This document shows, in pieces, positions 63,726 to 63,848 of a stretch of DNA of 64,000 nucleotides. Each line of letters begins with the position of its first letter. Within the stretch, counting starts at the first letter, position 1. Position numbers and translations under genes: made by a program. This stretch comes from Acidovorax sp. HDW3 (GTDB lineage: Bacteria; Pseudomonadota; Gammaproteobacteria; Burkholderiales; Burkholderiaceae_C): positions 1,594,001-1,658,000 of the forward strand of contig NZ_CP049885.1 of the NCBI RefSeq assembly GCF_011303755.1, written 5' to 3'. The notes under the pieces were generated by a model, which was not told the origin of the DNA, did no database searches, and was given only the letters and a program-made list of their open reading frames with translations.

Positions 63726-63758
63726 GGTGGGGTCTTTCCTGGGACAAAAGCGGTCATC

Positions 63759-63776
63759 TATGCAACCGGTTGCATA
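63759..63776. promoter_or_regulatory. Operator-like perfect palindrome, site 1
   Basis: TATGCAACCGGTTGCATA is an exact 18-bp palindrome in the fadH/padR divergent gap. It overlaps the expected fadH transcription start. It fits the TATGCA-N6-TGCATA pattern that I recall for the PadR-family regulator AphA. Confidence 0.8.
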
Positions 63777-63778
63777 AA

Positions 63779-63807
63779 AGTGTACGGTCGTTCGATTAAC
63801 TATGCAA
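63779..63807 (-). promoter_or_regulatory. Predicted fadH promoter
   Basis: On the minus strand TTGCAT (-35, within operator site 2) is followed after 17 bases by TACACT (-10 at 63779-63784). The start site would fall inside operator site 1. The two palindromes thus bracket the promoter. Confidence 0.6.
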
Positions 63808-63817
63808 CCAGTTGCAG
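63802..63817. promoter_or_regulatory. Operator-like imperfect palindrome, site 2
   Basis: ATGCAACCAGTTGCAG matches site 1 at 14 of 16 positions. Its centre is 42 bases from that of site 1, almost exactly four helical turns. It overlaps the fadH -35 box, and its TTGCAG could serve as a -35 for the regulator (TAGACT -10 at 63835-63840). Confidence 0.72.
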
Positions 63818-63848
63818 TACAGGTTTACCCGCTATAGACTGCGCGCCC

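Follow-up and report, generated by a model that had tools for sequence, protein, structure and literature searches.

In Acidovorax sp. HDW3, two near-identical palindromes lie between fadH and a divergent padR gene and are very probably part of a real, local and repressive circuit. From sequence comparison, we consider it likely that a local, autoregulated PadR of the AphA type represses the gene for a FadH-dienoyl-CoA isomerase fusion by occluding both promoters of the intergenic gap. A PadR-fadH circuit with two operators, as proposed in the initial annotation, is supported by the uniqueness of the sites, their AphA-like motif and their conservation in relatives. Within the window, the 64,000-nucleotide stretch of DNA analysed here, fadH starts at 63725 and the padR ATG lies at 63849, which confirms the divergent arrangement and the limits of the 123-bp gap (63726-63848). 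The features are as follows.

60789-63725, minus strand: fadH-isomerase fusion, 978 aa, with FadH at residues ~8-676 and Delta3,5-Delta2,4-dienoyl-CoA isomerase at ~711-978
63759-63776: predicted operator site 1, TATGCAACCGGTTGCATA, a perfect 18-bp palindrome over the predicted fadH transcription start, conserved in relatives
63801-63818: predicted operator site 2, TATGCAACCAGTTGCAGT, holding both divergent predicted -35 boxes
63807-63802 (-35) and 63784-63779 (-10), minus strand: predicted fadH promoter, TTGCAT-N17-TACACT, conserved spacing
63812-63817 (-35) and 63835-63840 (-10), plus strand: predicted padR promoter, TTGCAG-N17-TAGACT, conserved spacing
63849-64000, plus strand: padR, 5' part (remainder past the window end, L002:1050-1607), AphA-like PadR regulator of 185 aa

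Palindromes and the AphA-like regulator

The coordinates agree with the earlier description of two near-identical palindromes whose centres are 42 bp apart, and site 2 matches 14 of the 16 specified consensus positions. With three or fewer mismatches, the palindrome occurred twice in the window, where shuffled sequence predicts 0.01 occurrences, and sites 1 and 2 were also its only occurrences in the whole 3.15-Mb genome; the pair thus far exceeds chance, and its target in the HDW3 genome is local. The genome-wide search that had been proposed for defining the regulon thus returned a purely local target. No further copy of the exact TGCAACNNGTTGCA was found in the 3.15-Mb genome, and the reversed-pattern control gave none. 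A wider regulon at two mismatches was also considered (51 places against 14 in the reversed control), but the excess was not taken as a regulon, since almost every one of these places has two mismatches and the reversed control is an imperfect yardstick. One other single-mismatch match to ATGCAA-N4-TTGCAT (C1:1050623-1050638 of genome G000; L089:1501-1516) was judged to be probably due to chance; its position is the 5' end of an ORF resembling squalene/phytoene synthases, which is divergent from an efflux membrane-fusion gene.

The PadR protein contains an N-terminal winged helix (PF03551, E 8.7e-12, 45.3 bits against a gathering score of 27) and a C-terminal Vir_act_alpha_C domain (PF10400, E 8.8e-22, 78 bits against 22.4). 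Its PDB matches included AphA (1yg2, E 4.9e-32) and Mycobacterium tuberculosis Rv1176c (8ioi, E 9.7e-35), the latter being the nearest solved structure but differing in organism and genomic setting. A model of the 89% identical PadR from locus L012, built with an 18-sequence alignment, had a mean pLDDT of 88.5 and showed, as expected, a winged helix together with C-terminal helices, and its predicted fold matched 8ioi, PadR and AphA, with 8ioi closest (Foldseek E 2.6e-12, TM 0.87).

AphA of Vibrio cholerae, a PadR-family protein with Vir_act_alpha_C, shares with the HDW3 regulator its domain make-up, a near-identical recognition helix (ASHQQVYREL in AphA, ATHQQIYREL here) and the same operator. 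The motif obtained for AphA by ChIP-seq, ATGCAA-N4-TTGCAT (PMC6855506), is matched at 12 of 12 positions by site 1, as the initial annotation had sensed, and at 11 of 12 by site 2; the form given there, TATGCA-N6-TGCATA, is the same motif in other notation. The AphA operator code is thereby predicted to extend to a metabolic repressor. AphA, a quorum-sensing regulator with global reach (49 ChIP peaks), differs in this from the PadR described here, which has a single, local and adjoining target. The phenolic-acid repressors PadR of Bacillus subtilis and VanR have the same PadR fold with a C-terminal helical domain, although with only ~23-28% identity in the structural match. They are local, ligand-released repressors adjoining a catabolic target, and their operator sequence and target enzymes are other than those found here. 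This type of switch is already familiar, and the PadR-fadH case is a solid new example of it.

Association of the sites with PadR in relatives

Conservation of the palindromes next to padR-fadH, which had been set beforehand as the test of the circuit, was strong: paired palindromes were present upstream of fadH in 47 of the 54 related loci examined, spanning more than 20 Comamonadaceae genera as well as Paraburkholderia, Aquabacterium and others. Among 299 genomes of the family (PadR threshold E ≤1e-25, counts ignoring phylogeny), 31 had both PadR and site, 3 PadR only, 7 a site only and 258 neither. The site was therefore present in 31 of 34 PadR genomes versus 7 of 265 others (Fisher p 5e-32, a value that overstates independence since the loci share descent), and in the seven site-only genomes the sites do not adjoin a FadH of the PadR-linked kind. 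Many genomes of the family have FadH but no PadR, FadH being present in 122.

The sites stay with the target gene when padR is relocated. In locus L025, padR is tail to tail with fadH, and genome G284 (L103) has it on the fadH strand, downstream of that gene; both rearranged loci keep the palindrome pair upstream of fadH, with a spacing of 40 bp. Genus g37 carries the same PadR and sites, spaced 52 bp apart, ahead of a FadH of the classical lineage, an association that is independent according to the tree. Related PadRs also adjoin nitronate-monooxygenase-like genes that carry the same sites (L104, L123, L124 and L126), and this is probably also the case in L160. Because the sites track PadR across targets and remain at the target when padR moves, we infer that PadR is the protein that binds them, very probably at both palindromes. 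The loci with a PadR relative beside a nitronate-monooxygenase-like gene also include L106 and L160, and in L123 a SnoaL-like gene precedes the nitronate-monooxygenase-like gene.

These data bear directly on whether the palindromes could be bound by another regulator, padR being a mere neighbour. One candidate is FadP, a TetR-family protein: reconstructed regulons assign fatty acid degradation to FadR, PsrA and FadP, and FadP is the one predicted for Comamonadaceae (PMC5343134). However, the sites are almost confined to genomes with PadR, including at other target genes, they are absent beside ~90 FadH genes of PadR-less genomes of the family, and their motif is AphA's own; moreover, FadP governs a multi-operon regulon (PMC5343134), whereas the sites here belong to a single locus. 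We thus regard another regulator as very improbable. The proposed PadR circuit resembles those of FadR, PsrA and FadP in its control of beta-oxidation genes (PMC5343134), but those regulators belong to the GntR or TetR families and act on many operons, whereas a PadR-family protein would act here on one. No paper joining PadR with dienoyl-CoA reductase was found in the open-access literature, which was the scope of the search, subscription papers lying outside it. What emerges is a base-pair-level prediction of separate, single-operon control of unsaturated acyl-chain breakdown in Comamonadaceae and other Burkholderiales.

Predicted promoters and the proposed mode of repression

A strict sigma-70 scan called no promoter, as both hexamer sets are weak, and comparative spacing was used instead, so that support for the two promoters comes from conservation. 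Across the 47 loci, the fadH-side -10 averaged 3.68 of 6 TATAAT matches at N17 against 0.6-2.30 at other spacers (8-29), and the padR-side -10 match was also maximal at N17 (2.51). The geometry of the fadH promoter is kept in most loci, including those with a distance of 48-53 bp between sites 1 and 2. In the near clade, most loci have TAGACT at N17 and the padR ATG 34-37 nt from the -35, and the padR transcript is predicted to be near-leaderless, starting within a few bases of the ATG, near 63847 on the plus strand; the predicted fadH start is near 63772 on the minus strand.

The predicted -35 of fadH, TTGCAT, is the left half of site 2, and that of padR, TTGCAG, is its right half. The initial annotation had deduced that one palindrome overlaps the fadH -35 and the other the fadH start, a deduction that holds at the level of prediction by conserved geometry; beyond it, site 2 also contains the predicted padR -35. 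We therefore interpret site 2 as most plausibly a shared operator built from the divergent -35 boxes of both genes, with a second operator, site 1, located at the fadH start. One operator supplying both divergent -35 boxes would be a simple design.

In the proposed mechanism, a PadR dimer would occupy each 18-bp palindrome, as co-conservation and the identity of the recognition helix suggest. The dimer at site 2 would cover both -35 boxes and block polymerase at fadH and padR together, while the dimer at site 1 would cover the fadH start and strengthen repression of fadH only. An inducer, for which an unsaturated or dienoyl acyl-CoA or a related lipid is the likeliest candidate, would bind in the C-terminal domain and cause the dimers to leave. 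Isomerase and reductase would then be made, allowing unsaturated acyl chains to enter beta-oxidation, and more PadR would be made, by which repression would later be restored.

The same occupancy could in principle mean that PadR activates fadH, or both activates and represses, a behaviour that AphA shows at certain promoters: among characterised proteins with this motif AphA is the closest relative, and it activates virulence genes and also represses (PMC6855506). We consider this unlikely, given that the sites overlap the predicted -35 boxes and fadH start, where a bound protein would normally block polymerase, and that AphA represses at the loci dissected in that study (PMC6855506).

Regarding the repressor model, AphA binds site pairs at some promoters, occupying them cooperatively at tfoX and cqsS (PMC6855506), and the gap here carries a site pair, at which cooperative binding is plausible. 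The initial annotation had further read the distance between the sites as four helical turns. The 42 bp found here fit this reading, but exact phase across relatives is only suggestive: site spacing ranges from 33 to 53 bp, mostly 39-43 with 40 and 42 the commonest, and includes the out-of-phase values 37 and 48. At the genus level, 34 of 40 spacings fell within 2.5 bp of whole turns, although other periods fit about equally, and the phase test on distinct spacings (p 0.006) did not single out 10.5 bp.

The FadH-isomerase fusion and the probable pathway under control

The assignment of fadH made in the initial annotation stood, residues 8-676 matching Escherichia coli FadH (1ps9) with E 1.6e-288 and containing the Oxidored_FMN and Pyr_redox_2 domains, whereas the isomerase fusion had been absent from that account. 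The C-terminal 270 residues match PRK06142 (E 3.7e-123), and the residues aligned with rat D176, E196 and D204, which we take to be the catalytic residues of Delta3,5-Delta2,4-dienoyl-CoA isomerase, are identical in both the 1dci and the 2vre alignments. Dienoyl-CoA isomerase and FadH catalyze consecutive steps on odd-numbered double bonds in beta-oxidation. The conserved catalytic residues of the fused isomerase strengthen the role in unsaturated fatty acid breakdown that had been suggested, and which is plausible; judging from these sequences, the pathway is probably the breakdown of unsaturated acyl chains.

Fusion is graded among relatives (L013, L017, L019, L111, L112, L135, L139 and L140), from FadH alone (~677 aa) through FadH with a SnoaL-like domain (832-838 aa) to FadH with dienoyl-CoA isomerase (972-1075 aa). 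Distant relatives have a FadH of ~677 aa followed by a separate 146-aa SnoaL-like gene; many nearer ones have the SnoaL-like domain fused to FadH (832-838 aa) and a separate isomerase gene; and the isomerase is fused to FadH here as well as in L017, L019, G227, G123 and G029 (1075 aa). Downstream of fadH in HDW3 is a 69-aa ORF (60430-60639, minus strand), which had no Pfam or NCBIfam match.

The circuit may also be real while serving a different pathway, in which FadH and the isomerase act on another conjugated acyl compound (a terpenoid acid, a sorbate-like or an alicyclic acid) sensed by PadR. FadH proteins linked to PadR make up a clade of their own next to classical FadH; some genomes contain both, and relatives have SnoaL-like and nitronate-monooxygenase-like genes as partners. 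The occurrence of related PadRs beside a nitronate-monooxygenase gene suggests that PadR may respond to something other than a classic fatty acyl-CoA. On the other hand, a single FadH passed the threshold in the HDW3 genome, a true dienoyl-CoA isomerase as fusion partner agrees with reductase-dependent handling of odd-numbered double bonds, and in genus g37 the same circuit is attached to a classical FadH. Such a pathway is possible in our estimation, but somewhat doubtful. Returning to breakdown of unsaturated acyl chains, we tentatively propose that dienoyl-CoA or a comparable conjugated acyl compound is sensed by a PadR dedicated to it, which runs the auxiliary branch of beta-oxidation separately from the main FadP regulon, via an operator whose half-sites are the two divergent -35 boxes; this module would have been joined to two or more FadH lineages as well as to nitronate-monooxygenase-like operons.

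Two further arrangements were observed. In genome G048 (L106), a more distant PadR (35% identity) and an enoyl-CoA hydratase gene, with fadH behind it, are divergent, and the gap contains only a weak ATGCAA-like half-site. A contig labelled Streptomyces huasconensis (L031) has FadH and PadR paired (identities of 63% and 52%) and also a second PadR; the pair may represent horizontal transfer, contamination or a true actinobacterial relative.
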